Shown: in pieces, positions 3,001 to 43,728 of the stretch
How positions within the stretch are numbered: position 1 is the stretch's first letter
Layout of the letters: each line of letters starts with the position of its first letter
Origin: Antedon bifida
Lineage: Eukaryota; Echinodermata; Crinoidea; Comatulida; Antedonidae
Length of the DNA stretch: 64,000 nt
Reading direction: 5' to 3'
Assembly: GCA_963402885.1 (NCBI GenBank)
Contig: OY727097.1
Coordinates: forward strand, 9,486,001 to 9,550,000
Notes under the pieces: generated by a model
The model's input: only the letters and a program-made list of their open reading frames with translations
Told to the model about the DNA's origin: nothing
The model's database searches: none
Made by a program: the position numbers and the translations under genes

Positions 3001-5244
3001 GGCAACCCCCTTAAAATAGTCCTGCGACCGCCCCTGAATGTGTTTAGATTGCACTTAATAGTGCACAAATTAATAGAATGAACTTGCATTGTAAAGGTAG
3101 AAATAAACCTAAAAGCAATTCTGGTTTTGGAAAATTTTCAAGACTTTAGTAAGTCATATTTTTGGGGGGAAAGGTAGATGCACTTACATAAGTTTCTTCA
3201 GGCATACTATTAAGCTTTGTAATAACTATGTACAGTTTCCTTCTTTTCCCAAATGATGCAATACCAATGTCCTTTAAGTCTTGTTCTGTAACTGTTCTTA
3301 GAACCTCCATGTCAACATCATTTTCTATAAATTAAATTTCAATCAAAAAACATCTCATTAAACTTTAACCATGTGTATACTTATTGGCATATGCATTCAT
3401 GATCTCTACTACATTATACCTGATTTTATCTTGACGTATAAATATGTTTAAATAAAAATAGAATAAATAAAATTACTGTAATCATTTTAATATTAATTAT
3501 TGTATTTCGAAGTTCAGTCAAAGGATTAACATTTATACATTAAACCATATGCTTGTCTAAGGTGTACATAATTTATGGATTTAATACTATATACTGAATA
3601 ACATTTTGGAATATCAAAACATTAAAGTAAAGCTTTGAGTATATTTTTATTAAATACATTAGAAAAAGTCGTCAAAAATTCCATAAAATTATCCTTTTAA
3701 TTGATTGAATTAAGTACGATTAATTAAGCTTCAATAATGCTTGACGTATAAATATGTTTAAATAAAAATAGAATAAATAAAATTACTGTAATCATTTTAA
3801 TATTAATTATTGTATTTCGCAGTTCAGTCAAAGGATTAACATTTATACATTAAACCATATGCTTGTCTAAGGTGTACATAATTTATGGATTTAATACTAT
3901 ATACTACGGTGGCCTATAAGTGTCACGGCAACTTTCAAAAAATATCACGGCAATTTTTTCAAAAAATGCCACGGCAATTTGAAAAAAGCCACGGCAATTT
4001 GAAAAAAGCCACGGCAATTTGAAAAAAGCCACGGCAATTTGAAAAAAGCCACGGCAAATTAAAAATAAAACATCACGGCAAATTAAAAAAAAAAAAAGCG
4101 GCAATTTAACAAAAATACCACGGCAACTTAAAAATGAAACACCACGGCAAATTAGTATTGAAACACCACGGCAAATTAATAATGAAACACCACGGCAAAT
4201 TACAGAATGCCACGGCGGAAGTGAGTTACCACGGCGGAAGTGAAACCTTTGGAATCTTCGATTTTTTCTGAGGTAAGTAATTATTTGTGCATTGATGTAA
4301 ATATTATATTAATTTATTTAACTGCAGCAGTTTACGTGTTTATTGCACTCTTCTTGAACTTTCTAGGCCGGGCTAGACCATAGGCCTTATTACAAGGTAG
4401 GCCTAGGCCTTATAACATTCTATAATGTTTTAATATATTTACAGTAATCTGTTTTTTATATAACAAGTTTTTTTTACAGTAGACCTAGCTACTACTGTAG
4501 GCCTAGGGCTAATAGTAGGCATAGCTAGGCCTAGTGCAATAAACACGTAAATGCTGCAGTTAAATATAATAAATTAATATAATAATATTTACTTCAATGC
4601 ACAAATAATTACTTACCTCAGAAAAAATTGAAGATTCCAAAGGTTTCACTTCCGCCGTGGCATTCTGTAATTTGCCGTGGTGTTTCAATACTAATTTGCC
4701 GTGGTGTTTCAATACTAATTTGCCGTGGTGTTTCATTTTTAAGTTGCCGTGGTATTTCTGTTAAATTGCCGCGATGTTTTATTTTTAATTTGCCGTGATG
4801 TTTTATTTTTAATTTGCCGTGGCTTTTTTCAAATTGCCGTGGCTTTTTTCAAATTGCCGTGGCTTTTTTTGAAAGTTGCCGTGATATTTTTTGAAAGTTG
4901 CCGTGACACTTATAGGCCACCGTAATATACTGAATAACATTTTGGAATGAATATCAAAACATTAAAGTAAAGCTTTGAGTATATTTTTATTAAATACATT
5001 AGAAAAAGTCGTCAAAAATTCCATAAAATTATCCTTTTAATTGATTGAATTAAGTACGCTTCAATAATTTCAGATCCAATCCTGTAGAGTGACGTCACTC
5101 CGCTATGACACAACCAATAATCTAATCTACCATTATGCAAATCGGCCTTACTGAGTGGCTAAGCCTGGAAACAAAGAAATGCCTACCTTTAAGAACATTT
5201 ATAACATCATCGTCCACGTTTTTCGATTTCAAAAATGCTTCCAT
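34..5244 (-). CDS. SAM-domain protein, SAMD3-like, six exons, 3' partial
   Basis: I assembled this gene by hand from splice sites. Minus-strand coding exons are 5187-5244, 3188-3324, 2187-2336, 990-1103, 388-533 and 34-127. Each is bounded by AG and GTAAGT, GTGAGT or GTAGGC, and the reading phase is consistent across all five junctions. Exon 1 starts at ATG with MEAFLKSKNVDDDVINVLK. Exons 1 and 2 together form a SAM domain of about 60 residues; EQDLKDIGIASFGKRRKL is the typical helix 4-5 signature. Exons 3 and 4 are a polar, proline-rich linker. Exons 5 and 6 (for example YPTSPEKILLAKEIVRVFP) resemble the conserved middle region of SAMD3-type proteins. SAM domains mediate protein-protein or RNA contacts; the role here is unknown. 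A donor at 28-33 shows that the gene continues beyond the window. The SAM call is strong; SAMD3-like is from recall. Confidence 0.8.
1770..1918. mobile_element. MITE with AAGCTCTGTCTACA inverted ends
   Basis: An inverted repeat of about 150 bp lies in an intron of the SAM-domain gene. The left end reads TTAAGCTCTGTCTACAT and the right end reverse-complements to TAAAGCTCTGTCTACAC. The symmetry continues inward with GTGATGTGCCCA on both arms around a central TGACGTCA. It has no coding capacity. The family is not assigned. Confidence 0.6.
2670..3036. mobile_element. Non-autonomous hAT-like element
   Basis: The 367-bp segment starts CAGGGGCGGACGTAGG and ends with the inverted form of CAGGGGCGGTCGCAGG. 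CAGGGGCGG is a common hAT-superfamily terminus. I could not confirm the expected 8-bp target duplication (ACTGATGT left, AATGTGTT right), so the family call is tentative. It sits in the intron between exons 2 and 3 of the SAM-domain gene. Confidence 0.55.
3431..5065 (+). repeat. 310-bp tandem duplication, second copy split by an insertion
   Basis: Copy 1 is 3431-3740 and copy 2 is 3741-3904 plus 4925 to about 5065. The two are nearly identical. Copy 1 keeps the uninterrupted sequence at the point where copy 2 carries the fold-back element, and so serves as the empty site. Confidence 0.85.
3905..4924. mobile_element. Fold-back transposon with CACGGCAA subterminal repeats
   Basis: This 1,020-bp palindromic element starts TACGGTGGCC and ends GGCCACCGTA, with a 6-bp target duplication ATATAC at 3899-3904 and 4925-4930. 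Each arm holds an array of units of about 20 bp, GCCACGGCAATTTGAAAAAA on the left and the reverse complement on the right. The inner part (4262-4640) is also roughly palindromic, around a TAGGCCTA-rich centre. No transposase was found. Six-bp duplications occur in a few DNA transposon groups; I do not assign one. Such subterminal repeat arrays usually bind transposase, which is an inference here. Confidence 0.8.
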
Positions 5245-12239: not shown

Positions 12240-13680
12240 AAATTTAAACGTATGTGAATTAATAAAAAAGGATCAAGACTTAGAAAACACCAATTGTTGC
12301 CCGCCGCGCCTCCACCTTCATCCCCTGCCAAATACAATGCAAACATCGTAAACATAGCCCTGAGTCAGTGGATCACATGCAAAATCTACCTGTCTCTAAA
12401 CCAAGGCAATTCGATTGCCTTGCTCTAACACCCAGTGACGACACATATCTTAACAAACAAGAGTTTTCTGGCCCATGTCAGAACATCTTGAACGCTAGGT
12501 GCGGAAATTGGCCCGTGTACTTTGAAAATATCAGGCCATGTTTGGTAGAAAATAGGCGTAAATTTAGATAATGTACACCGCACTATATAGCCAACAACAG
12601 GAAATTTAGTTCGTTGACTTTTGAACGTTTTTGGACACAGGGTCTTTGTTTACAATTTTGGTGAAACTGCAAAGTTCCACTTATTTTAAATAAGATATTT
12701 CTTTTCTTATGCAGGTAGATACTGCAGTACAACAATTGTTAGTGCCCAATAATACTTTACGAAAGGGGGAAGAAATTCGGCCCTGGTTTTGATGGAGATA
12801 ATAGAAAATCGTATAAAGAATTGAACGGCACCGTCTTAAAAGAAGGGTACGAGTGAGTGTAAACTCGAAAAAATAATATTGATGATACTGTATTGTGGCA
12901 TGTTGCCTCATTAGTTGTTGGATAGGTACTATTAACATCTAGTCAGAGTTACAACGCTGTATTTAGTCTTAATTTATTATAACTAGACGCGTACCATCTA
13001 GGTCATGCCCACAGATGTTTTTCGAATACATAGTAATTTCAGCGTTAAAAAACTGGCGATTTCAAATGTAAGTACCGCAGAACAATAATACGTCGTCGTT
13101 TACAGAAACGAATAAATAGACACGGTGATTTATATACTCAATTGTACTCAATTAGCACTCTGGGAATTACTTCCGAAGGAAAAACTTGTCACAAAATGAA
13201 ACCAATTGCTTTAGCCAAATTTAAACAAACTTAATTGTGTTTTGCATGTGACATTAGGGTTAAGGGATGGGGAAGAGGATAGGTGCAAAGAGGAACAATT
13301 TTAAAATATTTTCTTTATCCATTCAGTAACGAAATATTAAATATATCAAATAATATACCACTAAACACAGTAAAACATTGCGATTTAATACTTGAAACTG
13401 TCAACGCCAAAGTCTTGATTGAAATATAGTACAGTACATGTAACGACACACCACTACGACGTTTTATTTACATTTTCTGTACAGTATTAATTAACACAAA
13501 CATTGAGAAGCAACTGTCAGTAATTTTATTTGTAAACTTTTATATACATTATGAATCATGCGTTTATATGTAAAAAAGTTTGTGAAAAAACACCTCTATT
13601 CGGGACAAATTCCCCTTAATCGTCAATAAATAATTATCTAACAAATGATTTTCAATTGTTTCTTAGAGCCAATTCATACT
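12240..13680. repeat. Array spacer, block B1 type
   Basis: Homologous to 8000-9470 and 17450-18660 and lacks the TTAA element. The right end is the trailer of G3, with AATAAA (complement) at 13463-13468. No gene is recognised. Confidence 0.7.
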
Positions 13681-17449: not shown

Positions 17450-18690
17450 TAAAAATTTAAACGTATGTGAATTAATAAAAAAGGATCAAGACTTAGAAAA
17501 CACCAATTGTTGCCCGCCGCGCCTCCACCTTCATCCCCTGCCAAATACAATGCAAACATCGTAAACATAGCCCTGAGTCAGTGGATCACATGCAAAATCT
17601 ACCTGTCTCTAAACCAAGGCAATTCGATTGCCTTGCTCTAACACCCAGTGACGACATATATCTTAACAAACAAGAGTTTTCTGGCCCATGTCAGAACATC
17701 TTGAACGCTAGGTGCGGAAATTGGCCCGTGTACTTTGAAAATATCAGGCCATGTTTGGTAGAAAATAGGCGTAAATTTAGATAATGTACACCGCACTATA
17801 TAGCCAACAACAACAGCTGTAGGAAATTTAGTTCGTTGCCTTTTGAACGTTTTTGGACACAGGGTCTTTGTTTACAATTTTGGTGAAACTGCAAAGTTCC
17901 ACTTATTTTAAATAAGATATTTCTTTTCTTATGCAGGTAGATACTGCAGTACAACAATTGTTAGTGCCCAATAATACTTTACGAAAGGGGGAAGAAATTC
18001 GGCCCTGGTTTTGATGGAGATAATAGAAAATCGTATAAAGAATTGAACGGCACCGTCTTAAAAGAAGGGTACGAGTGAGTGTAAACTCGAAAAAATAATA
18101 TTGATGATACTGTATTGTGGCATGTTGCCTCATTAGTTGTTGGATAGGTACTATTAACATCTAGTCAGAGTTACAACGCTGTATTTAGTCTTAATTTATT
18201 ATAACTAGACGCGTACCATCTAGGTCATGCCCACAGATGTTTTTCGAATACATAGTAATTTCAGCGTTAAAAAACTGGCGATTTCAAATGTAAGTACCGC
18301 AGAACAATAATACGTCGTCGTTTACAGAAACGAATAAATAGACACGGTGATTTATATACTCAATTAGCACTCTGGGAATTACTTCCGAAAGAAAAACTTG
18401 TCACAAAATGAAACCAATTGCTTTAGCCAAATTTAAACAAACTTAATTGTGTTTTGCATGTTACATTAGGGTTAAGGGATAGAGAAGAGGATAGGTGCAA
18501 AGAGGAACAATTTTTAAATATATTCTGTATCCATTCAGTAACGAAATATTAAATGTGTTCATGTTTTACAAATAATATACCACTAAACACAGTAAAACAT
18601 TGCGATTTAATACTTGAAACTGTCAACGCCAAAGTCTTGATTGAAATATAGTACAGTATGTAACGATACACCACTACGACGTTTATATAT
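17450..18690. repeat. Array spacer, block B1 type
   Basis: Homologous to 12240-13450 and, from about 18105, to 43139-43720. It shows the uninterrupted sequence GATGATACTGTATTGTGG (about 18102-18119), which is the empty site of the large palindrome inserted at 30098. Confidence 0.75.
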
Positions 18691-29399: not shown

Positions 29400-30097
29400 G
29401 AGGATATTACCCTCCACCCCACCTGCCTTTTTAATAATATTAAAAACGTATGTGAATTAATAAAAAAGGATCAAGACTTAGAAAACACCAATTGTTGCCC
29501 GCCGCGCCTCCACCTTCATCCCCTGCCAAATACAATGCAAACATCGTAAACATAGCCCTGAGTCAGTGGATCACATGCAAAATCTACCTGTCTCTAAACC
29601 AAGGCAATTCGATTGCCTTGCTCTAACACCCAGTGACGACATATATCTTAACAAACAAGAGTTTTCTGGCCCATGTCAGAACATCTTGAACGCTAGGTGC
29701 GGAAATTGGCCCGTGTACTTTGAAAATATCAGGCCATGTTTGGTAGAAAATAGGCGTAAATTTAGATAATGTACACCGCACTATATAGCCAACAACAACA
29801 GCTGTAGGAAATTTAGTTCGTTGACTTTTGAACGTTTTTGGACACAGGGTCTTTGTTTACAATTTTGGTGAAACTGCAAAGTTCCACTTATTTTAAATAA
29901 GATATTTCTTTTCTTATGCAGGTAGATACTGCAGTACAACAATTGTTAGTGCCCAATAATACTTTACGAAAGGGGGAAGAAATTCGGCCCTGGTTTTGAT
30001 GGAGATAATAGAAAATCGTATAAAGAATTGAACGGCACCGTCTTAAAAGAAGGGTACGAGTGAGTGTAAACTCGAAAAAATAATATTGATGATACTG
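29400..30097. repeat. Array spacer, left part, interrupted by the palindrome
   Basis: Block B1 sequence that ends with ATACTG (30092-30097), the left target duplication of the large element. It continues at 43133 with ATACTGTATTGTGG. Confidence 0.85.
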
Positions 30098-30628
30098 AGT
30101 AGTAAAATACACTGGCCTAGCCCCCGTAGAGGGCTTTTGAGGGGATAACATTAGTTAATCCTATTATAATTAATACAATGGTAAACAATGGTAAGGAAGT
30201 AAAACAATGGAGATGTTATATATTAATACACATATAATATAAAATTTATTGAATAATAAATAAAATGTATATGGTGATTTAGTCGCTTGTAAGGAGAACA
30301 AATGGTTTCCAATGGTTAAGTATAAGATAATAGGTGTTATGTTTCGGATTATAATACAATGGTTGACATTGGGTAAGACAATATAGTTTTTTGTGGGAAT
30401 TGAATTAGTCATGGATACAAATAAAGATGCACCTGGTTAATTAAAACTAGTTAATAAAGTTGGTCCGGATATTTAGGATTTTAAAATAAAGGTTATTTAA
30501 GTATGTAAAATTAACTAATGAATGTATTCTTATTATTCTTTACCTCCATTTTATTTAAAAAAAATTATTTTAATTTCTCAAACATTGCTGCAGTGCTCTA
30601 CTGGGTACCGTAAGTATGCTTATTGTAG

Positions 30629-30995
30629 TACATGCATTTGTTTGATCAATTCCGATATGTACTTAAGAAGTGCCGACATGTACTTAACCATCTTCCGGAA
30701 ATGTTAACAATGGAGCTTCGCAATGAATGAATAGTGTATCGTCAAACAAGATGTTAGTTTCACCATTTTTCAAAAAAGTAATGTTAAAGTGGCGGAAATT
30801 TTAAAAGATTTAAACAAAAGGTGTGTTAGTATAATTTACAGTGGCGGTCTTTATATGCATTTGTTTGATCAATTCCGATATGTACTTAAGAAGTGCCGAC
30901 ATGTACTTAACCATCTTCCGGAAATGTTAACAATGGAGCTTCGCAATGAATGAATAGTGTATCGTCAAACAAGATGTTAGTTTCACCATTTTTTC
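30629..30995 (+). repeat. Direct duplication in the outer left arm
   Basis: A block of about 140 bp starting GCATTTGTTTGATCAATTCC occurs at about 30634-30776 and again at 30857-30995. It has the mirror arrangement in the right arm at about 42235-42600. The spacing is about 222 bp. No coding function is apparent. Confidence 0.8.
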
Positions 30996-31259
30996 AAAAA
31001 AGTAAAACAAATAATAATTATTTCTAACTTTAAATTAAGTTTCATTTTCATTTAAATGGTTTACGTTTTACATAAAGATTTCTTTGTTTCCTTTTAAAAA
31101 AAAAAAAAAAAAAAGGACCCTACAACTGACATGCATAAATTATTTTGTTTAGTATAAATGTAGGGTGAATGTATAGTTAAATTATCAGTATCAGTTTTCA
31201 AAGCGCTGAACTCACTTCTACAATCTTGATTAGGAGAATTTAGTACAGTTTTCATCAGT

Positions 31260-31784
31260 ATGAACTTCTACAAACCAACAGTCGATTACACCGATTCTAA
31301 AATAGTCGATAAGGCTAAGGCTACTATGCAGCGAGTTATGAGGCCTAGCAAGAGACAGAGAGTAGAAGATGAACCAAATACTAACGCTTCTTTTCAACAA
31401 GATTGTCGACCGGTGGTACAGAATCACTTTTTTAAGAATGATAGTCGAATTACAGTTACAGCTACTAAACGTATTAAACTTAATGAAACGAGGCACGTTG
31501 TTGCTCAACGTTGGGGTGATGATATGTACGTGTGTATCCGAGAATACTATCAATCAGAACCAGATGGTAAATTTAAACCGGGCAAGAAAGGTATTAATTT
31601 AACAATGATGCAGTGGAGAGATCTAATGGAGCAAAAGGACATGGTCGATGAAATGATTTTAGAATTGGACGGGGTTGATTATTGTGGAAATGGTGTAGAC
31701 TCGAATGATAATGGAATTCTAGAATCACGGACCAAAAAAAGTTACCAGAATGACAATTACGATTGGTTAAAACAGTTCCCGTAA
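31260..31784 (+). CDS. PC4/SUB1-like transcription coactivator, left-arm copy
   Basis: A 174-residue frame from ATG. Residues about 85-135 match the C-terminal ssDNA-binding domain of PC4 (p15, SUB1): MYVCIREYY, then KPGKKGINLTMMQW, then a helix. The lysine-rich PGKKGI..L turn and the IREYY strand are hallmark features. The N-terminal half is basic with KRQRVEDE, a possible nuclear signal, and the C-terminal tail is acidic. PC4 proteins bind single-stranded DNA and act in transcription, replication and repair. In this element it may serve viral transcription or DNA handling, which is inferred. The frame is intact. TATAAATG near 31155 could be a promoter, and AATAAA occurs downstream near 32073. 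Confidence 0.85.
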   Translation: MNFYKPTVDYTDSKIVDKAKATMQRVMRPSKRQRVEDEPNTNASFQQDCRPVVQNHFFKNDSRITVTATKRIKLNETRHVVAQRWGDDMYVCIREYYQSEPDGKFKPGKKGINLTMMQWRDLMEQKDMVDEMILELDGVDYCGNGVDSNDNGILESRTKKSYQNDNYDWLKQFP

Positions 31785-31879
31785 TTACAATGCACTCTTT
31801 TGGAAAAACGGAATGATGATTTAAATTCAATGACATTGGGGAAGCTACTTAATGAAACAAAAGGAACACAGCGCTTTTC

Positions 31880-32640
31880 AAAGCCATAAAGTTGATTACA
31901 AATGATTCAGAACTTTTTAATAAGATTCTTAACCAATTGTAATTTCTACAAATTTAAATATTATCTTAACACTTTTTTTTAATTAATGTTATATATTTTT
32001 ATAATTCTTATTTCTTTTCGGTAAATTTATTATTATTATGGTTGTAAAATATATTGAAATAGAATGTGTGTTAAAATAAAGGTTGTGTTTTTTCTTTTAA
32101 AAGCAACAACAAAAATGAAATTTGATCTTTGCGTGTTATTTAAGTATTTGATTTATTTTTTAAGTTTTCATTTGGGTGATTGAGGGTAATGAGTATGGAT
32201 GAGTACTTAAGAAAAGTATATTTATGTGGGCGCTAAACTACTTTCATTTACGTTGTATAAATGTTGATGCGTTTGCTAAAGCCATAAAGTTGATTACAAA
32301 TGATTCAGAACTTTTTAATAAGATTCTTTACCAATTGTAATTTGTACAAATTTAAAATAATATCTTAACACTTTTTTAAATTAATGTTACATTATATTTT
32401 TATATTTCTTATTTCTTTTCGGTAAATTTATTATTATTATGGTTGTAAATTATATTGAAATAGAATATGTGTTAAAATAAAGGTTGTGTTTTTTCTTTTA
32501 AAAGCAACAACAACGAAAATGAATTTGATCTTTGAGTGTTATTTAAGTATTTTATTTATTTTTTTTAATTTTCATTTGGGTGAATGAGGGTAATGAGTAT
32601 GGATGAGTACTTAAGAAAAGTATATTATTACGATCCTAAG
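31880..32640 (+). repeat. About 395-bp direct duplication in the left arm
   Basis: The block from AAAGCCATAAAGTTGATTAC to the integrase start (GAGTACTTAAGAAAAGTATA) is present twice, at about 31884-32221 and 32278-32632, with small differences. The first copy has a truncated integrase start. It is mirrored at about 40598-41350 in the right arm, so the duplication predates the palindrome. Confidence 0.8.
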
Positions 32641-32841
32641 CATCCTGATAGTTTTGGTGGTGTGGACCGACTTTATCAAAATGTAAAATACGATTTAAAT
32701 ATTACCAAGAGACAAGTTCAAGACTGACTGAGCAAGCAAGATACATATACATTACACAAATCCATTCAACGTAAATTCAAACGAAACTGGGTACTTGTAA
32801 GTGTTATTGATGAACAATGGGGAATGGATTTGGAAAAATAA
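32593..32841 (+). pseudogene. Polinton-type integrase N-terminal remnant, left arm
   Basis: From an ATG at 32593 the frame encodes the start of a retroviral-like integrase as found in Polintons/Mavericks. The recognisable pieces are YDPKHPDSFGGV near residue 14 and TYTLHKSIQRKFKRN near residue 50. An in-frame TGA at 32725-32727 interrupts it, and a TAA follows at 32839-32841, just where the catalytic core should begin. The DDE core and chromodomain are absent. It cannot be an active integrase; any mobilisation would need one supplied in trans. I give no repaired sequence. Confidence 0.75.
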
Positions 32842-34109
32842 CGTGTATAAAATTTGATTCAGACAAACTGTTTGACTTTAAATTTCCAAAAATCAAAGGA
32901 AGTCAATTTTGAAATAGTTGGTAGCATGGTACAAGGAATCGGACTGGAAAAAATAACAACAACTAATCCTAACAAAATAACCCGTAAACCAAAAATCTCA
33001 CTCTCTACCATTCAAAAACAAAATTTTTGATGTAGCGATTTTTTCAAGCGGTATTGTCATGAACGTATTGAAAAGAAAATAGTTTTATTGTCAATGATTT
33101 GTCAAGTGTTTTATTTTAATTTCAATTACTGTTGTATTGTATTTAGTTTTACCCGTTCATGTTGGCATGATCAATATTTGCTCAAACTCCATTTTATCGT
33201 TATGTTTGTAGTATTTTAGAGCTTCCCGATCATCGTAATAATGATATAACTAGAATTCGTAACCGTGTGTTAGATTCCACGCGTATTATATACATATTGT
33301 CTTACTTTAATTCCTTCTCTCGTTATTCACCCGATGTAGTTTGATCAAACATTGTACCTGAGCCTGAAAGGTTAGTTGTTATGGTACAAGGAATCGGCCC
33401 GGACAATAATTTGTTTTCTTTTCTGTTAAATTATTATTATGTTTGTGAATTGTGTATTGCAATAGATTTGTTTAATGAAATTAAATTAATTAGGCCTATG
33501 TTTTGACTTAATTTACTGTCAGTGTAAATTTGTAAAAGTAGTTTTCCTACTTTAATTCACGGTAAATTTATTTATCGACTTAATTTAATTTGTTTTCTTT
33601 TCTGTTGTTGTTAAATGTAATTGCAAACACACATAATAAATGATTGTGATTATAAATATTCTGTTTACTTCTTTTAATTTTAAACAGTACAATAGATCTG
33701 TAATGTAAAGTTATATTTTATATATAATAAGTAATATTACAAAAATAAACATACAAAATGTATAAAGCATAGATTAATTAAATTTAAATACAATTTCTTT
33801 ATTTCAAAATGAATTTCATTTTCTACGTGTTTTCAATTTTAAATCTTTTAAGAAAGACACAATAGGTACTGCTAAAAAAATAAAACGCACACAAAAGAAA
33901 ACAAATTTGAGACGCACGATATGTAACGACGGTTTCAATAAAAAGGCATATTATAAATGTATTTTTACCAAATTTATAAAGTAAAGTGTTATTATTGAGA
34001 AATATACATTTTAGATAAATGATAACACATCTAAAATTAATTAGAGAGATCAATACAATATGGTGTTCATAATAATGTTTTGATGACTAGAGGAAACATC
34101 TGAAGACAT
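32842..34109. other. Left-arm stretch without recognised gene
   Basis: AT-rich sequence between the integrase remnant and the Bcl-2-like gene. Short, broken peptide-like pieces occur, and ATGGTACAAGGAATCGG occurs twice (about 32925 and 33380). It may hold decayed viral genes, but none could be identified. Confidence 0.4.
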
Positions 34110-34681
34110 TCAACAAAAAACAAGCGTTAACACCATACCAGTCATTAAGAATGCTACTACTCTGAAAAAAACATCTCCCTTCAAGCACAGAAACAAATTC
34201 TGAACGAAAATAAAAAATAAAAATAATTAGTAAACGAAACACGCGCATTATAAATAAAATGAATAATTTAAGAATATTTGTTAAAATACCCACGAACAAA
34301 ACAAAAAAAAAGAAACATACTAACCGATTTATCGTCATTACGAAGTTCAAATAACGAAAACTTTTCCTTGAAAAATCCACAAGAGACACGTTTTACATTT
34401 TCTAACTGCATTTCAGTGTCACATTGTTTCGCAACACATGTACATAAAACGAGTCCTGTCACAAATCTGCCGACATTTATTTTTTTATCGCTCATCATTT
34501 GTTCTAATACATAATACAACGCTTCCGAAGAAATATCTTTACACAATTCTAACACATTAAAATTGTTTTCCAACTCTTTACAAGCACGAATAGTACTCTG
34601 GAGGATGGGTGAATCCAAAACAATTAACCCCGTCAATTTATATTCAATGTATACTAAAACTACTTCCTCTAAATCAACCAT
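34110..34681 (-). CDS. Bcl-2-like protein, two exons, left-arm copy
   Basis: Exon 1 is 34325-34681 from ATG, and exon 2 is 34110-34199 to a TGA. Between them is a 125-bp intron (34200-34324) with donor GTTAGT and a pyrimidine-rich TTCAG acceptor, phase 0. The predicted length is about 148 residues, short for the family. A BH3-like helix (RACKELENNF) lies near residues 32-41. A BH1-like motif with NVGR, corresponding to the family's NWGR, is at about 69-72. Exon 2 encodes a hydrophobic, probably membrane-anchoring tail. The intron falls about 47 residues after NVGR, where animal Bcl-2 genes are split in BH2. Bcl-2 homologues block or promote mitochondrial apoptosis; the direction here is unknown. 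Homology is by motif only. Confidence 0.6.
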
Positions 34682-34689
34682 AACGCTCG

Positions 34690-36180
34690 ACAAAACAAAT
34701 GATAATGGATGTAATTACCAAGAAAGTTACAACTTAAAACATTTATTTTTGTTTTTAAAAAGAAGTTGTAACATAGAAACTAATTTTGTCAGGAAATGTG
34801 TTTTTATTATTTATGTGATTTAATTGTGTTTAGAAAGTTACAACATTAACATTTAATTTTGTCAAAAAAAATGTGAATATACGGAGCCGAATGTAATTTT
34901 TAATCCTTAGTATAGTGAGAGATTTTATATAAGAAAAAAAAAAAAAAAAAAAAAGAGCGAACGGAAACTAATGATTGCAGATTAGCCATATAGAAATGGA
35001 TTGAAATTGGAAATCCACATGATCAAAGAAAAGAAATCATCGTTCCGACAGAAGCTAATGACAATTACAAAGGATGACACAGTTTGAATATAGTAATTAC
35101 CGTAAAACATAATTAAATGTTGTCAAGATAGTTGTCAAAAATAAATAAAATATATTATACTGAATTTACTTTGTACATTTATTTAATTTAGACCGTAATT
35201 AGGGTTGTTGTTCATTTATGATTGTGAAAAATATACATACGAATAAAACAGCTATATATATATATAAAAAAAAAATAATGATTCAGTGTTATAATTTTAT
35301 TTACCTGTCATTATGTTAAATAAAACATATTCTAAATTAAATTTATATCATGTTAGATATATTTTCAAGAACATTTTTTACATAAAAATAAATTTGTAAA
35401 GAAATTTGTTACATAAGATAAATTTGTTAAGAAGTTTGTTTCATAAAAATATTTGTGTAGATAAATTTGTTACATGAAAATAAATTTTTCAAAATATTTG
35501 TTACATAAAAATAAATTTGTAAAGAAATTCGTTACATAAATTTATTTTTTACAAGAAGTTTGTAACAGAAAATTATTTTGCTAAGAATTAGTTGCATCAA
35601 TTGATTTTATCAACCGTATGTAACATAAAGAATTATTTTGTTGAAAAAAATATTTTGTCATTCAGTCCATTGTTCAATAGGCCTAGTTCGTTTAAGTTTT
35701 TAAGAATTATTTGTGTAATATTCTTGTATATAAGAGAATTTATTTTTAACCTTTGTAATTATTTTGTAAATATCATTTATGCAATATTTTTGTGTGTAAA
35801 TATTTGAATTTATTTATACTTTTTGTATGGAAATAATTATACTAATATTAAATATCATTATTTGTTTATAAATTTATTTGTGATTATAGATTTATTCTTT
35901 ATAAGTATGTCGATTAATTTCAGAATCAAAAACTTGTTACATAAGAAAAAAAAATGGTCATGAAATTCGTTAAATAAAAAATAATTTATCAAGAATCTTT
36001 TTACATAAATTTTATTTTATCATTAAATTTGTTACATAAAAATAATTTGTCAAGAATCTTTTTGCATAAAATTTATTTTGTCATTAAGTTTGTTACATAA
36101 AAAAAAAAAAATTGTTTCATGAATCTTGTTACATTTTTTAAATTTTTGTTTTCAACTACTTATATGAAAATTCAAGTTAA
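34690..36180. repeat. AT-rich part of left arm with TTGTTACATAAA minisatellite
   Basis: Between about 35300 and 36150 the motif TTTGTTACATAAAAATAAATT recurs at irregular spacing of about 35-40 bp, mostly as diverged copies. A poly-A run of about 22 bases lies at 34934-34954. The mirror is at about 37075-38540. No gene is recognised. It could be a replication or packaging signal array, but nothing proves this. Confidence 0.6.
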
Positions 36181-36192
36181 GAACGCAGTATA

Positions 36193-36324
36193 ATGACAAT
36201 GACTGGGCGTTTAGTAACACCTTTCACCGCGGTGATTAGCGGACAGACTTCCTCCGGTAACTCGGTATTTGTTAACAATCTTTTAGAAAATAATTACTTT
36301 AAAAAAATAAAACAAGTCGTTTGA
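36193..36324 (+). pseudogene. Start of a Polinton packaging ATPase, left arm
   Basis: A 43-codon frame resembles the N-terminal 40 residues of A32/FtsK-HerA-type packaging ATPases of Polintons. A TPFTAVISGQTSSGNSVFV segment stands where the Walker A P-loop belongs. The P-loop lysine is replaced by asparagine (SSGNS), and the frame stops soon after, so it cannot be an active ATPase. The fold-back point of the palindrome lies 0.25 kb downstream. Confidence 0.6.
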
Positions 36325-36390
36325 TGATATGACAAAGTATTATGGCGAATATCAAACTTAGTTTGAGAAGTAAATACTGTTTGTGTTTAC

Positions 36391-36570
36391 ATGCGTGTCA
36401 TAGTAGAGTCCGCAGAGACCTACAGATTTAAATTTAGAAATTCAAACAGAGTTAAAGATATGTCCATCAGGGAATGGCTGAATGAGCTCTCCCATTATTT
36501 AAAATGTTGGATGAAATGGGCTAATGTAAAAGAAGATGATGCTGCAGGCATTTTATCAAGTTATAAATAA
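36391..36570 (+). CDS. Small hypothetical ORF beside the fold-back centre, left
   Basis: A 59-residue frame from ATG (MRVIVESAETYRF...) to TAA, ending 11 bp before the arm end. Composition is ordinary (WLNELSHYL, KCWMKWANV). No family is recognised. It could be the remains of a longer viral gene cut by the fold-back event. The mirror copy at 36658-36837 has Phe for Ser at one codon. Confidence 0.3.
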   Translation: MRVIVESAETYRFKFRNSNRVKDMSIREWLNELSHYLKCWMKWANVKEDDAAGILSSYK

Positions 36571-36581
36571 TGAATTTTAAC

Positions 36582-36646
36582 ATTTGTTTTTTGCTCATCA
36601 CTGCATATTCAAATTAGTGTGTATGCAACCATAGTAAATTTAATAA
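36582..36646. other. Unpaired 65-bp spacer at palindrome centre
   Basis: The only part of the element without a mirror copy. In single-stranded form it would be the loop of a 6.5-kb hairpin. It holds no motif I recognise. Confidence 0.85.
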
Positions 36647-36657
36647 GTTAAAATTCA

Positions 36658-36837
36658 TTATTTATAACTTGATAAAATGCCTGCAGCATCATCTTCTTTT
36701 ACATTAGCCCATTTCATCCAACATTTTAAATAATGGGAGAGCTCATTCAGCCATTCCCTGATGGACATATCTTTAACTCTGTTTGAATTTCTAAATTTAA
36801 ATCTGTAGGTCTCTGCGAACTCTACTATGACACGCAT
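36658..36837 (-). CDS. Small hypothetical ORF beside the fold-back centre, right
   Basis: Mirror of 36391-36570, 59 residues with one apparent amino-acid change. Function unknown; coding status unproven. Confidence 0.3.
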   Translation of the reverse strand: MRVIVEFAETYRFKFRNSNRVKDMSIREWLNELSHYLKCWMKWANVKEDDAAGILSSYK

Positions 36838-36903
36838 GTAAACACAAACAGTATTTACTTCTCAAACTAAGTTTGATATTCGCCATAATACTTTGTCATA
36901 TCA

Positions 36904-37035
36904 TCAAACGACTTGTTTTATTTTTTTAAAGTAATTATTTTCTAAAAGATTGTTAACAAATACCGAGTTACCGGAGGAAGTCTGTCCGCTAATCACCGCG
37001 GTGAAAGGTGTTACTAAACGCCCAGTCATTGTCAT
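36904..37035 (-). pseudogene. Start of a Polinton packaging ATPase, right arm
   Basis: Mirror of 36193-36324 with the same altered P-loop and the same stop. Confidence 0.6.
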
Positions 37036-38548
37036 TATACTGCGTTCTTAACTTGAATTTTCATATAAGTAGTTGAAAACAAAAATTTAAAAAATGTAAC
37101 AAGATTCATGAAACAATTTTTTTTTTTTTTATGTAACAAACTTAATGACAAAATAAATTTTATGCAAAAAGATTCTTGACAAATTATTTTTATGTAACAA
37201 ATTTAATGATAAAATAAAATTTATGTAAAAAGATTCTTGATAAATTATTTTTTATTTAACGAATTTCATGACCATTTTTTTTTCTTATGTAACAAGTTTT
37301 TGATTCTGAAATTAATCGACATACTTATAAAGAATAAATCTATAATCACAAATAAATTTATAAACAAATAATGATATTTAATATTAGTATAATTATTTCC
37401 ATACAAAAAGTATAAATAAATTCAAATATTTACACACAAAAATATTGCATAAATGATATTTACAAAATAATTACAAAGGTTAAAAATAAATTCTCTTATA
37501 TACAAGAATATTACACAAATAATTCTTAAAAACTTAAACGAACTAGGCCTATTGAACAAATGGACTGAATGACAAAATATTTTTTTCAACAAAATAATTC
37601 TTTATGTTACATACGGTTGATAAAATCAATTGATGCAACTAATTCTTAGCAAAATAATTTTCTGTTACAAACTTCTTGTAAAAAATAAATTTATGTAACG
37701 AATTTCTTTACAAATTTATTTTTATGTAACAAATATTTTGAAAAATTTATTTTCATGTAACAAATTTATCTACACAAATATTTTTATGAAACAAACTTCT
37801 TAACAAATTTATCTTATGTAACAAATTTCTTTACAAATTTATTTTTATGTAACAAATGTTCTTGAAAATATATCTAACATGATATAAATTTAATTTAGAA
37901 TATGTTTTATTTAACATAATGACAGGTAAATAAAATTATAACACTGAATCATTATTTTTTTTATATATATATATATAGCTGTTTTATTCGTATGTATATT
38001 TTTCACAATCATAAATGAACAACAACCCTAATTACGGTCTAAATTAAATAAATGTACAAAGTAAATTCAGTATAATATATTTTATTTATTTTTGACAACT
38101 ATCTTGACAACATTTAATTATGTTTTACGGTAATTACTATATTCAAACTGTGTCATCCTTTGTAATTGTCATTAGCTTCTGTCGGAACGATGATTTCTTT
38201 TCTTTGATCATGTGGATTTCCAATTTCAATCCATTTCTATATGGCTAATCTGCAATCATTAGTTTCCGTTCGCTCTTTTTTTTTTTTTTTTTTTTTCTTA
38301 TATAAAATCTCTCACTATACTAAGGATTAAAAATTACATTCGGCTCCGTATATTCACATTTTTTTTGACAAAATTAAATGTTAATGTTGTAACTTTCTAA
38401 ACACAATTAAATCACATAAATAATAAAAACACATTTCCTGACAAAATTAGTTTCTATGTTACAACTTCTTTTTAAAAACAAAAATAAATGTTTTAAGTTG
38501 TAACTTTCTTGGTAATTACATCCATTATCATTTGTTTTGTCGAGCGTT

Positions 38549-39120
38549 ATGGTTGATTTAGAGGAAGTAGTTTTAGTATACATTGAATATAAATTGACGG
38601 GGTTAATTGTTTTGGATTCACCCATCCTCCAGAGTACTATTCGTGCTTGTAAAGAGTTGGAAAACAATTTTAATGTGTTAGAATTGTGTAAAGATATTTC
38701 TTCGGAAGCGTTGTATTATGTATTAGAACAAATGATGAGCGATAAAAAAATAAATGTCGGCAGATTTGTGACAGGACTCGTTTTATGTACATGTGTTGCG
38801 AAACAATGTGACACTGAAATGCAGTTAGAAAATGTAAAACGTGTCTCTTGTGGATTTTTCAAGGAAAAGTTTTCGTTATTTGAACTTCGTAATGACGATA
38901 AATCGGTTAGTATGTTTCTTTTTTTTTGTTTTGTTCGTGGGTATTTTAACAAATATTCTTAAATTATTCATTTTATTTATAATGCGCGTGTTTCGTTTAC
39001 TAATTATTTTTATTTTTTATTTTCGTTCAGAATTTGTTTCTGTGCTTGAAGGGAGATGTTTTTTTCAGAGTAGTAGCATTCTTAATGACTGGTATGGTGT
39101 TAACGCTTGTTTTTTGTTGA
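38549..39120 (+). CDS. Bcl-2-like protein, two exons, right-arm copy
   Basis: Mirror of 34110-34681: exon 1 is 38549-38905, the intron 38906-39030 and exon 2 39031-39120. The exon-1 reading frame is identical in both arms. Without splicing, the frame runs on to a stop near 38960 and would lack the hydrophobic tail. Bcl-2 homologues have been reported in adintovirus-like genomes, which fits the proposed origin of the element. Confidence 0.6.
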
Positions 39121-40388
39121 ATGTCTTCAGATGTTTCCTCTAGTCATCAAAACATTATTATGAACACCATATTGTATTGATCTCTCTAATTAATTTTAGA
39201 TGTGTTATCATTTATCTAAAATGTATATTTCTCAATAATAACACTTTACTTTATAAATTTGGTAAAAATACATTTATAATATGCCTTTTTATTGAAACCG
39301 TCGTTACATATCGTGCGTCTCAAATTTGTTTTCTTTTGTGTGCGTTTTATTTTTTTAGCAGTACCTATTGTGTCTTTCTTAAAAGATTTAAAATTGAAAA
39401 CACGTAGAAAATGAAATTCATTTTGAAATAAAGAAATTGTATTTAAATTTAATTAATCTATGCTTTATACATTTTGTATGTTTATTTTTGTAATATTACT
39501 TATTATATATAAAATATAACTTTACATTACAGATCTATTGTACTGTTTAAAATTAAAAGAAGTAAACAGAATATTTATAATCACAATCATTTATTATGTG
39601 TGTTTGCAATTACATTTAACAACAACAGAAAAGAAAACAAATTAAATTAAGTCGATAAATAAATTTACCGTGAATTAAAGTAGGAAAACTACTTTTACAA
39701 ATTTACACTGACAGTAAATTAAGTCAAAACATAGGCCTAATTAATTTAATTTCATTAAACAAATCTATTGCAATACACAATTCACAAACATAATAATAAT
39801 TTAACAGAAAAGAAAACAAATTATTGTCCGGGCCGATTCCTTGTACCATAACAACTAACCTTTCAGGCTCAGGTACAATGTTTGATCAAACTACATCGGG
39901 TGAATAACGAGAGAAGGAATTAAAGTAAGACAATATGTATATAATACGCGTGGAATCTAACACACGGTTACGAATTCTAGTTATATCATTATTACGATGA
40001 TCGGGAAGCTCTAAAATACTACAAACATAACGATAAAATGGAGTTTGAGCAAATATTGATCATGCCAACATGAACGGGTAAAACTAAATACAATACAACA
40101 GTAATTGAAATTAAAATAAAACACTTGACAAATCATTGACAATAAAACTATTTTCTTTTCAATACGTTCATGACAATACCGCTTGAAAAAATCGCTACAT
40201 CAAAAATTTTGTTTTTGAATGGTAGAGAGTGAGATTTTTGGTTTACGGGTTATTTTGTTAGGATTAGTTGTTGTTATTTTTTCCAGTCCGATTCCTTGTA
40301 CCATGCTACCAACTATTTCAAAATTGACTTCCTTTGATTTTTGGAAATTTAAAGTCAAACAGTTTGTCTGAATCAAATTTTATACACG

Positions 40389-40637
40389 TTATTTTTCCAA
40401 ATCCATTCCCCATTGTTCATCAATAACACTTACAAGTACCCAGTTTCGTTTGAATTTACGTTGAATGGATTTGTGTAATGTATATGTATCTTGCTTGCTC
40501 AGTCAGTCTTGAACTTGTCTCTTGGTAATATTTAAATCGTATTTTACATTTTGATAAAGTCGGTCCACACCACCAAAACTATCAGGATGCTTAGGATCGT
40601 AATAATATACTTTTCTTAAGTACTCATCCATACTCAT
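40389..40637 (-). pseudogene. Polinton-type integrase N-terminal remnant, right arm
   Basis: Mirror copy of 32593-32841 with the same internal TGA and the same loss of the catalytic core. Confidence 0.75.
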
Positions 40638-41445
40638 TACCCTCATTCACCCAAATGAAAATTTAAAAAAATAAATAAAATACTTAAATAACACTCAAAG
40701 ATCAAATTCATTTTCGTTGTTGTTGCTTTTAAAAGAAAAAACACAACCTTTATTTTAACACATATTCTATTTCAATATAATTTACAACCATAATAATAAT
40801 AAATTTACCGAAAAGAAATAAGAAATATAAAAATATAATGTAACATTAATTTAAAAAAGTGTTAAGATATTATTTTAAATTTGTACAAATTACAATTGGT
40901 AAAGAATCTTATTAAAAAGTTCTGAATCATTTGTAATCAACTTTATGGCTTTAGCAAACGCATCAACATTTATACAACGTAAATGAAAGTAGTTTAGCGC
41001 CCACATAAATATACTTTTCTTAAGTACTCATCCATACTCATTACCCTCAATCACCCAAATGAAAACTTAAAAAATAAATCAAATACTTAAATAACACGCA
41101 AAGATCAAATTTCATTTTTGTTGTTGCTTTTAAAAGAAAAAACACAACCTTTATTTTAACACACATTCTATTTCAATATATTTTACAACCATAATAATAA
41201 TAAATTTACCGAAAAGAAATAAGAATTATAAAAATATATAACATTAATTAAAAAAAAGTGTTAAGATAATATTTAAATTTGTAGAAATTACAATTGGTTA
41301 AGAATCTTATTAAAAAGTTCTGAATCATTTGTAATCAACTTTATGGCTTTGAAAAGCGCTGTGTTCCTTTTGTTTCATTAAGTAGCTTCCCCAATGTCAT
41401 TGAATTTAAATCATCATTCCGTTTTTCCAAAAGAGTCCATTGTAA

Positions 41446-41970
41446 TTACGGGAACTGTTTTAACCAATCGTAATTGTCATTCTGGTAACTTTTTTTGGTC
41501 CGTGATTCTAGAATTCCATTATCATTCGAGTCTACACCATTTCCACAATAATCAACCCCGTCCAATTCTAAAATCATTTCATCGACCATGTCCTTTTGCT
41601 CCATTAGATCTCTCCACTGCATCATTGTTAAATTAATACCTTTCTTGCCCGGTTTAAATTTACCATCTGGTTCTGATTGATAGTATTCTCGGATACACAC
41701 GTACATATCATCACCCCAACGTTGAGCAACAACGTGCCTCGTTTCATTAAGTTTAATACGTTTAGTAGCTGTAACTGTAATTCGACTATCATTCTTAAAA
41801 AAGTGATTCTGTACCACCGGTCGACATTCTTGTTGAAAAGAAGCGTTAGTATTTGGTTCATCTTCTACTCTCTGTCTCTTGCTAGGCCTCATAACTCGCT
41901 GCATAGTAGCCTTAGCCTTATCGACTATTTTAGAATCGGTGTAATCGACTGTTGGTTTGTAGAAGTTCAT
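41446..41970 (-). CDS. PC4/SUB1-like transcription coactivator, right-arm copy
   Basis: Mirror copy of the gene at 31260-31784, intact, 174 residues. I noticed one amino-acid difference, Glu for Asp in the segment before CRPVVQNHFF. The preserved frame in both arms means either that the palindrome is very young or that the arms are homogenised. Confidence 0.85.
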   Translation of the reverse strand: MNFYKPTVDYTDSKIVDKAKATMQRVMRPSKRQRVEDEPNTNASFQQECRPVVQNHFFKNDSRITVTATKRIKLNETRHVVAQRWGDDMYVCIREYYQSEPDGKFKPGKKGINLTMMQWRDLMEQKDMVDEMILELDGVDYCGNGVDSNDNGILESRTKKSYQNDNYDWLKQFP

Positions 41971-43132
41971 ACTGATGAAAACTGTACTAAATTCTCCTAA
42001 TCAAGATTGTAGAAGTGAGTTCAGCGCTTTGAAAACTGATACTGATAATTTAACTATACATTCACCCTACATTTATACTAAACAAAATAATTTATGCATG
42101 TCAGTTGTAGGGTCCTTTTTTTTTTTTTTTTTTTAAAAGGAAACAAAGAAATCTTTATGTAAAACGTAAACCATTTAAATGAAAATGAAACTTAATTTAA
42201 AGTTAGAAATAATTATTATTTGTTTTACTTTTTTGAAAAAATGGTGAAACTAACATCTTGTTTGACGATACACTATTCATTCATTGCGAAGCTCCATTGT
42301 TAACATTTCCGGAAGATGGTTAAGTACATGTCGGCACTTCTTAAGTACATATCGGAATTGATCAAACAAATGCATATAAAGACCGCCACTGTAAATTATA
42401 CTAACACACCTTTTGTTTAAATCTTTTAAAATTTCCGCCACTTTAACATTACTTTTTTGAAAAATGGTGAAACTAACATCTTGTTTGACGATACACTATT
42501 CATTCATTGCGAAGCTCCATTGTTAACATTTCCGGAAGATGGTTAAGTACATGTCGGCACTTCTTAAGTACATATCGGAATTGATCAAACAAATGCATGT
42601 ACTACAATAAGCATACTTACGGTACCCAGTAGAGCACTGCAGCAATGTTTGAGAAATTAAAATAATTTTTTTTAAATAAAATGGAGGTAAAGAATAATAA
42701 GAATACATTCATTAGTTAATTTTACATACTTAAATAACCTTTATTTTAAAATCCTAAATATCCGGACCAACTTTATTAACTAGTTTTAATTAACCAGGTG
42801 CATCTTTATTTGTATCCATGACTAATTCAATTCCCACAAAAAACTATATTGTCTTACCCAATGTCAACCATTGTATTATAATCCGAAACATAACACCTAT
42901 TATCTTATACTTAACCATTGGAAACCATTTGTTCTCCTTACAAGCGACTAAATCACCATATACATTTTATTTATTATTCAATAAATTTTATATTATATGT
43001 GTATTAATATATAACATCTCCATTGTTTTACTTCCTTACCATTGTTTACCATTGTATTAATTATAATAGGATTAACTAATGTTATCCCCTCAAAAGCCCT
43101 CTACGGGGGCTAGGCCAGTGTATTTTACTACT

Positions 43133-43728
43133 ATACTGTATTGTGGCATGTTGCCTCATTAGTTGTTGGATAGGTACTATTAACATCTAGTCAGAGTTAC
43201 AACGCTGTATTTAGTCTTAATTTATTATAACTAGACGCGTACCATCTAGGTCATGCCCACAGATGTTTTTCGAATACATAGTAATTTCAGCGTTAAAAAA
43301 CTGGCGATTTCAAATGTAAGTACCGCAGAACAATAATACGTCGTCGTTTACAGAAACGAATAAATAGACACGGTGATTTATACTCAATTGTACTCAATTA
43401 GCACTCTGGGAATTACTTCCGAAAGAAAAACTTGTCACAAAATGAAACCAATTGCTTTAGCCAAATTTAAACAAACTTAATTGTGTTTTGCATGTTACAT
43501 TAGGGTTAAGGGATAGAGAAGAGGATAGGTGCAAAGAGGAACAATTTTTAAATATATTCTGTATCCATTCAGTAACGAAATATTAAATGTGTTCATGTTT
43601 TACAAATAATATACCACTAAACACAGTAAAACATTGCGATTTAATACTTGAAACTGTCAACGCCAAAGTCTTGATTGAAATATAGTACAGTATGTAACGA
43701 TACACCACTACGACGTTTATATATATTT
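43133..43728. repeat. Array spacer, right of the palindrome
   Basis: Begins with the right target duplication ATACTG and continues the interrupted unit. Homologous to 18109-18700. Confidence 0.8.

Follow-up and report, generated by a model that had tools for sequence, protein, structure and literature searches.

A near-perfect 13-kb palindrome in the feather star Antedon bifida, probably a snap-back derivative of a Polinton

A 64,000-nucleotide (nt) stretch of the crinoid Antedon bifida genome (GenBank assembly GCA_963402885.1, contig OY727097.1, positions 9,486,001 to 9,550,000; here, the window) contains at 30098-43132 a near-perfect palindrome in which one arm, running from an element's left end and holding rearranged remnants, is present twice, head to head. 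We consider it probable that this palindrome is an integrated, non-autonomous derivative of a Polinton (Maverick), and that fold-back primed by microhomology during Polinton replication yields self-complementary satellites, which are maintained in palindromic form and inserted by an integrase acting in trans.

Structure and insertion site of the palindrome

Alignment of the two arms (6484 and 6486 bp) gave 6478 identities and 6 substitutions, together with two 1-bp indels, both insertions in the right arm. An inverted repeat of such length is far beyond chance, and the palindrome is confirmed. An earlier note on this DNA had described arms of about 6.48 kb with few differences, a 65-bp spacer, AG..CT ends, and a duplication of ATACTG, all of which the alignment bears out. 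Both ends of the element carry AGTAGTAAAATACAC, and the termini read AGTAG..CTACT. The 20-base end motif, with up to 3 mismatches allowed, occurs at just these two sites in the window (mean in shuffled sequence, 0.01). We also looked for a bias in the differences between arms: four of the six are A/T or C/G exchanges, and 29 differences in five elements gave no usable pattern.

The window's host DNA consists of clustered C2H2 zinc-finger units with 84-bp repeats. The left flank, a single ATACTG, and the right flank, joined over 400 bp, are 100% identical to 12691-13090 and 17913-18312, and because of this identity the two paralogous units provide two exact empty target sites. The empty site earlier reported at about 18102 is therefore present, but it is one of two and not the only one (Table 1). 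Further paralogues of the joined flanks match at about 95 to 97%. The closer empty-site unit has 9 substitutions in a 2832-column alignment versus 6 in 6484 between the arms; since unit divergence exceeds arm divergence, the insertion would be younger than the duplication of the zinc-finger units, provided that neither was converted.

A defective Polinton derivative with relatives in the same genome

The window element shares AG..CT ends, inverted terminal repeats, and a 6-bp target-site duplication with Polintons of the same genome and with vertebrate Mavericks as described in PMC8097293. Related elements encode integrase, family B DNA polymerase (PolB), C5 protease, A32-like ATPase, and a capsid homologue, and the palindrome's genes are related to theirs in sequence. 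Its integrase pieces are 76 to 85% identical to residues 1-82 of 357-amino-acid (aa) integrase open reading frames (ORFs) in the same-genome relatives L030 and L032, in agreement with the Polinton origin first proposed; the narrower label adintovirus-like in that note is tentative. Unlike a Polinton, the element has one arm doubled, and integrase, PolB, and ATPase are present only as remnants. The retroviral-type integrase gene is reduced to N-terminal pieces with an in-frame stop and PolB to a C-terminal remnant, and the set of double-jelly-roll capsid, C5 protease, and A32-like ATPase is represented by an ATPase remnant only. Because the element falls short in gene content, we regard it as a defective derivative and not a complete Polinton; its descent is from a Polinton, and it is best named a defective, palindromic derivative. 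The integrase and ATPase remnants listed in the earlier note are both there, but the list was incomplete, as each arm also holds an open PC4 ORF, an open Bcl-2-like ORF, and the PolB remnant.

One unit-length relative was read through, at C15:13284849-13299092 (loci are given as contig and position). It spans 14,244 bp, is flanked by the duplication TCTGAT, and has an inverted terminal repeat of only a few hundred bp at 90 to 95%, in contrast to the full-arm repeat of the window. Its gene order is PC4, the 357-aa integrase, 273-aa and 133-aa ORFs, a 446-aa capsid homologue, and protease; the opposite strand carries 267-aa and 121-aa ORFs, the A32-like ATPase, and a 1284-aa DNA_pol_B_2 ORF. It has no match to the window's Bcl-2-like region. 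The 1284-aa ORF of L041 matches DNA_pol_B_2 (E 6.1e-48) and the ATPase ORF of L040 matches Pox_A32 (E 4.7e-5). L032, 98.6% identical in DNA over the stretch of the C15 element, matches rve (E 1.1e-13) with a chromodomain and Peptidase_C5 (E 9.3e-6), and its 273-aa ORF matches DUF5901 below the cut-off (E 4.5e-5). The 357-aa integrase ORF is open in L030, L032, and L040. The 446-aa ORF has no Pfam match of its own; among four homologues scanned, one with 55% identity to it matches a double-jelly-roll-like domain (E 1.5e-7), and two Porites homologues carry capsid names. Over 92% of its length, the same ORF shares 98% identity with a protein of Antedon mediterranea.

Matching ends and duplications were found at six of the seven other loci with a single PC4 copy (13.7 to 14.4 kb), and C8:21.93M had no matching ends. 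With C15 included, seven of the eight single-PC4 loci tested are thus unit-length elements with duplications. All seven are candidate helpers and have PolB-like DNA at the expected position: the query itself, one at 99%, and five at 66 to 67%. The PC4 proteins of this set match the window alike (88 to 89%) despite the split in PolB (five at 66 to 67% to L041), and the lineages may have swapped element ends.

Turning points readable against relatives

A snap-back origin had been proposed from the window alone, and comparison with relatives supports it, as the turning point can be read against them. The window and its relatives L036 and L028 are collinear across the arm end, the 65-bp spacer, and GTT, after which the relatives continue, whereas the window turns back, its GTT pairing with the AAC at the arm end 65 nt upstream. 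For the palindrome at C10:1.28M, L040 and L030 have AAAAA, 47 nt, and TTTTT followed by other sequence, and the spacer lies in the opposite orientation. A 33-bp centre turns on GTG/CAC against L040. At C1:6.0M, the middle of the genome is joined to an inverted left end at a common TTT, which leaves a 4.6-kb loop. Across these four junctions, microhomology is 3 to 5 nt and the loops measure 33, 47, and 65 nt and once 4.6 kb. All four fit self-priming or template switching.

Protein-primed strand displacement, as in adenoviruses and similar linear DNAs, frees single strands that are able to fold back and self-prime. Given the type of polymerase, the folding strand would be one displaced during protein-primed Polinton replication. 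The product would be self-complementary and carry at each terminus the same end for replication and integration; a helper polymerase could copy it and a helper integrase insert it. Copied and inserted by helper enzymes in this way, the palindromes would be satellites of the full-length elements, and their near-unit length hints that they might be packaged in helper capsids. Because the window's integrase is cut short, its integration would have been in trans.

Palindromic loci across the genome

We searched the 315.6-Mb assembly (27 contigs) and scored 40 of 119 candidates for arm DNA, 108 of 108 for PC4 protein, 40 of 55 for PolB DNA, and 40 of 88 for Bcl-2 DNA; totals are lower bounds. Matches to arm DNA and PC4 protein form mirrored plus/minus pairs about 10 to 13 kb apart at many loci. 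End tests set aside loci with PC4 fragments alone. Both halves of ten pairs were compared: all ten have AGTAG..CTACT ends and are flanked by exact 6-bp duplications whose sequence varies with the locus, and nine are palindromic through to the centre, the tenth (C1:6.0M) having 3.5-kb arms around a 4.6-kb single-copy middle. Edge and centre sequences of two more distant pairs, C7:19.06M and C11:12.63M, revealed palindromic centres in both and a duplication at C7:19.06M. With the window, and counting C1:6.0M although just 3.5 kb of each arm is mirrored, there are 13 left-end loci with sequence, 12 of which have their own 6-bp duplication. The palindromes at C8:21.83M and C12:22.61M have the full end seen in the window.

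These observations bear on whether the palindrome is an assembly artefact from a foldback read or a graph error, an option to which we give next to no weight. The arms are near-identical and assembly sequence alone is the basis of the analysis, as such an error would have it. A foldback read does not fit, however, because the flanking host DNA differs on each side and agrees with the exact empty sites. Different duplications at 12 of 13 loci, substitutions in one arm alone, spacers in either orientation, and the presence in this assembly of seven unit-length relatives that have one PC4 copy each also speak against it.

Arms are rearranged between lineages; for example, a 2.9-kb segment is inverted between the window and C1:29.97M. 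The centres of C7:19.06M and C11:12.63M resemble that of C7:16.5M by eye, and L057 and L060 match L038 at 85 to 98%. The computed spacers of C7:19.06M and L065 (347 and 1358) are over-long from near-axis mismatches, and these centres were recognised by eye. This distant lineage (L038, C7:19.06M, and C11:12.63M), with its similar centres, has PC4 36 to 51% identical to that of the window and, at L038:2049-3191, a 381-aa ORF with two PC4 matches. In the arms of the C10:1.28M palindrome, ORFs for integrase, the capsid homologue, and protease remain open. Within another palindrome, an ORF at L028:3489-4016 starts like an integrase N terminus (by eye) and ends as a 2OG-Fe(II) oxygenase (E 6.9e-12), and is either a fusion or a captured gene.

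Among the best 40 of 88 candidates, Bcl-2 DNA gave 19 mirrored pairs, 12 of them at new loci. Their spacing is 3 to 7 kb in 18 of 19, with 11.6 kb at C8:22.59M. PolB-gene DNA (best 40 of 55 candidates) gave seven mirrored loci, mostly 66 to 69% identical to the query; the main matches are mirrored at five of these, and at C7:13.10M and C9:9.32M the outer pieces alone. A 45-bp centre is common to three mirrored PolB-like loci and visible at a fourth. These PolB loci would stem from the end of a Polinton that carries the polymerase.

By sequence or mirrored matches, the genome thus holds at least 32 palindromic loci (13 left-end, 12 Bcl-2, and 7 PolB). We see hardly any prospect that the window is a single defective-interfering genome, trapped once as a dead end and without onward spread. 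In line with a dead end, the arms of the window contain no polymerase, integrase, capsid, or protease gene recognisable as intact, but the number of loci, several with common centres, speaks against it.

Two regions stand out by their arrangement. A stretch of about 0.5 Mb at C8:22.08-22.60 Mb holds five mirrored Bcl-2 pairs plus an unpaired match and is either an insertion cluster or a segmental duplication. At C11:7.79-7.94 Mb, fragments of the PC4 region lie on one strand, mostly about 24.4 to 26 kb apart, perhaps a tandem duplication carrying a broken element.

Shared centres and concerted arms

The earlier note had suggested looking for other copies with the same centre, and two were found: the 30-base junction of the window centre also occurs at C8:22398110 and C8:22474108, in both orientations (reversed control, 0), and these are the midpoints of two mirrored Bcl-2 pairs. 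Together with the element's own 6-bp duplication and the exact empty sites, they uphold the proposal that the palindrome integrated as one unit. A 33-bp spacer occurs at three loci and near-identically at a fourth, and a 49-bp spacer at two loci, in either orientation; all six loci with 33- or 49-bp centres have their own duplications. The 31-bp and 47-bp centres occur at one locus each.

Shared centres bear directly on repair by the host after integration, in which an inserted unit-length element broke and its right end was rebuilt from the left arm via the terminal repeats. Such repair would likewise leave a single duplication, a paralogue with an empty site, and a centre that is short and unique. 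It is nonetheless very improbable, as one centre is found at several sites with different duplications, which already contradicts it for the 33- and 49-bp centres, and the window centre is present at three loci.

Sites that differ between copies are mostly alike in both arms: 4/5 among three copies with the 33-bp centre, 55/55 for one pair of loci (C1:29.97M versus C10:13.62M), and 16/18 in a 4-kb part of another pair (75/78 substitutions overall). Arm divergence within elements is 0 to 0.18% in ten elements, a set that leaves out C1:6.0M, C7:19.06M, and C11:12.63M, and three copies with one common centre differ by 0.015 to 0.061%. Hairpin copying would keep the arms alike at each round, with gene conversion by the host as the alternative.

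A family of DNA transposons with very long terminal inverted repeats (TIRs) is an unlikely but more serious competitor. Here, ordinary integrase action on a copied template would move the element, conversion or youth would keep its arms alike, and no snap-back intermediate would arise. Common centres and duplications show no more than that the palindrome moves as a unit, and the arms are young in 10/10 elements compared, both of which such a family would accommodate. Against this, 55/55 differences alike in both arms would require very efficient conversion over 6.4 kb, and the turning points require a self-templating step, at least at the origin. A snap-back origin with spread as palindromes remains the reading we prefer.

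The 12 palindromes with both ends measure 11.6 to 14.7 kb (mean, 13.1) and the seven unit-length elements 13.7 to 14.4 kb (mean, 14.1), a comparison weakened in that the palindromes are mutually related and were found with similar queries. Because random fold-back could yield anything up to about twice unit length, this near-unit size hints at a packaging limit.

Comparison with known systems

Snap-back or palindromic deletion mutants of adenoviruses and of other linear DNAs with protein-primed replication are products of the laboratory or of infection, and we know of no endogenous families of this type. Foldback or long-TIR transposons such as Tm1 are named for their long inverted repeats; by comparison, the elements here have a Polinton as parent, and four of their centres can be read as fold-back junctions.

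The window palindrome has one original end at both termini, is self-complementary, and has a loop at the turn, as a snap-back genome does. The nearest functional likeness is to the snapback class of defective adeno-associated virus (AAV) genomes, which are self-complementary, derive from either end (5' and 3'), and are symmetric or have a single-stranded loop (PMC8235507). The same paper reports that they replicate on functions supplied from elsewhere and that a template switch was earlier proposed for nonunit-length AAV genomes (PMC8235507). Unlike these, the present palindromes are integrated, with 6-bp duplications and lineages with common centres. AAV is a parvovirus, and we claim a functional likeness but no kinship.

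No palindromic Polinton appeared among the titles and abstract openings listed for the literature searched, full texts and most subscription journals being beyond that scope. Viral contigs searched with the PC4 protein gave one candidate and with a PC4 alignment 104, none confirmed in either case, and the end motif was found in 0 contigs. Integrase motif 1 led to one viral contig (L001), judged unrelated by its ORFs and tblastn, and integrase motif 2 matched two (L002 and L003), with no relation seen for L002.

Gene content of the arms and other features of the window

The PC4-like ORF (Table 1) is 50% identical over 83% to a relative in the feather star Anneissia japonica, whose start its own start resembles. 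Comparing the window with six relatives gives a PC4 dN/dS of 0.27 to 0.33, which is what a gene still of use would show; in the remaining 15 pairs changes are few and values run from 0.12 to 1.15, two being undefined. The Bcl-2-like ORF is weakly recognised, by a Pfam match below the curated cut-off (E 7e-5) and a weak similarity (E 0.054) to a Bcl-2-like chain of fowlpox. A protein search gave 36 candidates, none at E <= 0.001, and the structure model has a pLDDT (predicted local distance difference test) score of 39.7. On the minus strand at 34120-34420, inspection by eye shows a GT..AG pair past this ORF and then a hydrophobic frame, which suggest a spliced tail. When 1000 arms of similar dinucleotide composition were simulated, runs without a stop reached 148 codons or more 6 times and 184 codons once. 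Fifteen further ORF pieces of the left arm gave no convincing match in Pfam, and the window has no Rfam match at gathering scores.

Outside the palindrome, about 95 matches to the 84-bp-period zinc-finger repeat form many tandem units from about 6.7 kb of the window. An inverted repeat of its own, about 1 kb long, lies at 3900-4929 (81% over 996 columns; outer ends, 96 to 98%) and is a separate foldback or MITE-like (miniature inverted-repeat transposable element) element.

Table 1. Coordinates of the palindrome, its target sites, and its putative coding remnants in the window
Feature	Position	Strand	Details
Left arm	30098..36581	+	6484 bp; begins AGTAGTAAAATACAC
Right arm	36647..43132	-	6486 bp
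Spacer, fold-back loop	36582..36646		65 bp; within an arm in relatives L036 and L028
Target-site duplication ATACTG, left copy	30092..30097		Empty-site comparison
Target-site duplication ATACTG, right copy	43133..43138		Empty-site comparison
AAC, inner end of left arm	36579..36581	+	Proposed fold-back annealing site
GTT	36647..36649	+	3-nt microhomology with AAC; common to window and relatives not folding here
Empty target site	12885..12890		ATACTG; paralogous zinc-finger unit
Second empty target site	18107..18112		ATACTG; paralogous unit
AT-rich tandem repeats, left arm	35362..36104		Periods about 31 and about 61 bp; one interruption
PC4-like ORF, left arm	31230..31784	+	184 aa stop to stop; Pfam PF02229, E 1.1e-14
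PC4-like ORF, right arm	41446..42000	-	One residue differs, D58E
Integrase N-terminal remnant, left arm	32584..32838	+	Two pieces, in-frame stop between, then truncated
Mirror of first integrase piece, right arm	40503-40646
PolB C-terminal remnant, left arm	32872..32994	+	Residues 1212-1252 of L041 ORF, 76%; mirror 40236-40358
Bcl-2-like ORF, left arm	34268..34714	-	148 aa stop to stop; Pfam PF00452, E 7.1e-5, below curated cut-off
Bcl-2-like ORF, right arm	38516..38962	+	Protein identical to left-arm copy
A32-like packaging ATPase N-terminal remnant, left arm	36190..36381	+	Residues 4-64 of L040 ORF, 49%

Implications

Several points weigh against a family of Polinton satellites that arise by fold-back and spread as palindromes. 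That the elements replicate as palindromes, are packaged, depend on a helper, or affect helper or host is what we infer from genomic sequence. The sample of junctions is small, at four, with microhomology as short as 3 nt. As for an autonomous relative with the same ends, which the earlier note had proposed to look for, the unit-length elements with ends read share AGTAG, but the full end is present in 0/7 of them. The 12 Bcl-2 and 7 PolB loci rest on mirrored matches, with ends unread, and 2 of 21 Bcl-2 loci are unpaired. C11:12.63M has no duplication in the stretches read. A distance of 76 kb separates the two C8 loci with the window centre, whose ends are unread; host duplication of a single insertion could account for both, and the concerted arms could stem from host gene conversion after insertion. 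Finally, dN/dS of the Bcl-2-like ORF (0.57 to 2.2 in 15 pairs) indicates no clear constraint.

A more far-reaching idea, which we offer tentatively and think somewhat more apt to be wrong than right, is that these palindromes are heritable self-complementary satellite viruses, with hairpin replication, packaging in unit-length Polinton capsids, a selected PC4, an acquired Bcl-2-like gene, and perhaps long hairpin RNA, from read-through across the centre, directed against the helper.

Similar elements elsewhere may have been missed by any repeat survey that demands a long insert between terminal repeats. One survey, in the part of PMC12220804 that sets out its filters, kept inserts of 6 to 80 kb and TIRs of 100 bp to 8 kb, which as we understand them would exclude full palindromes. 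Taken together, these palindromes may offer snap-back defective genomes as a genomic record, in which formation points, turnover, and spread could be read from one animal genome. They would also be indirect evidence that displaced single strands take part in the replication of animal Polintons and that these, like viruses, give rise to defective satellites.

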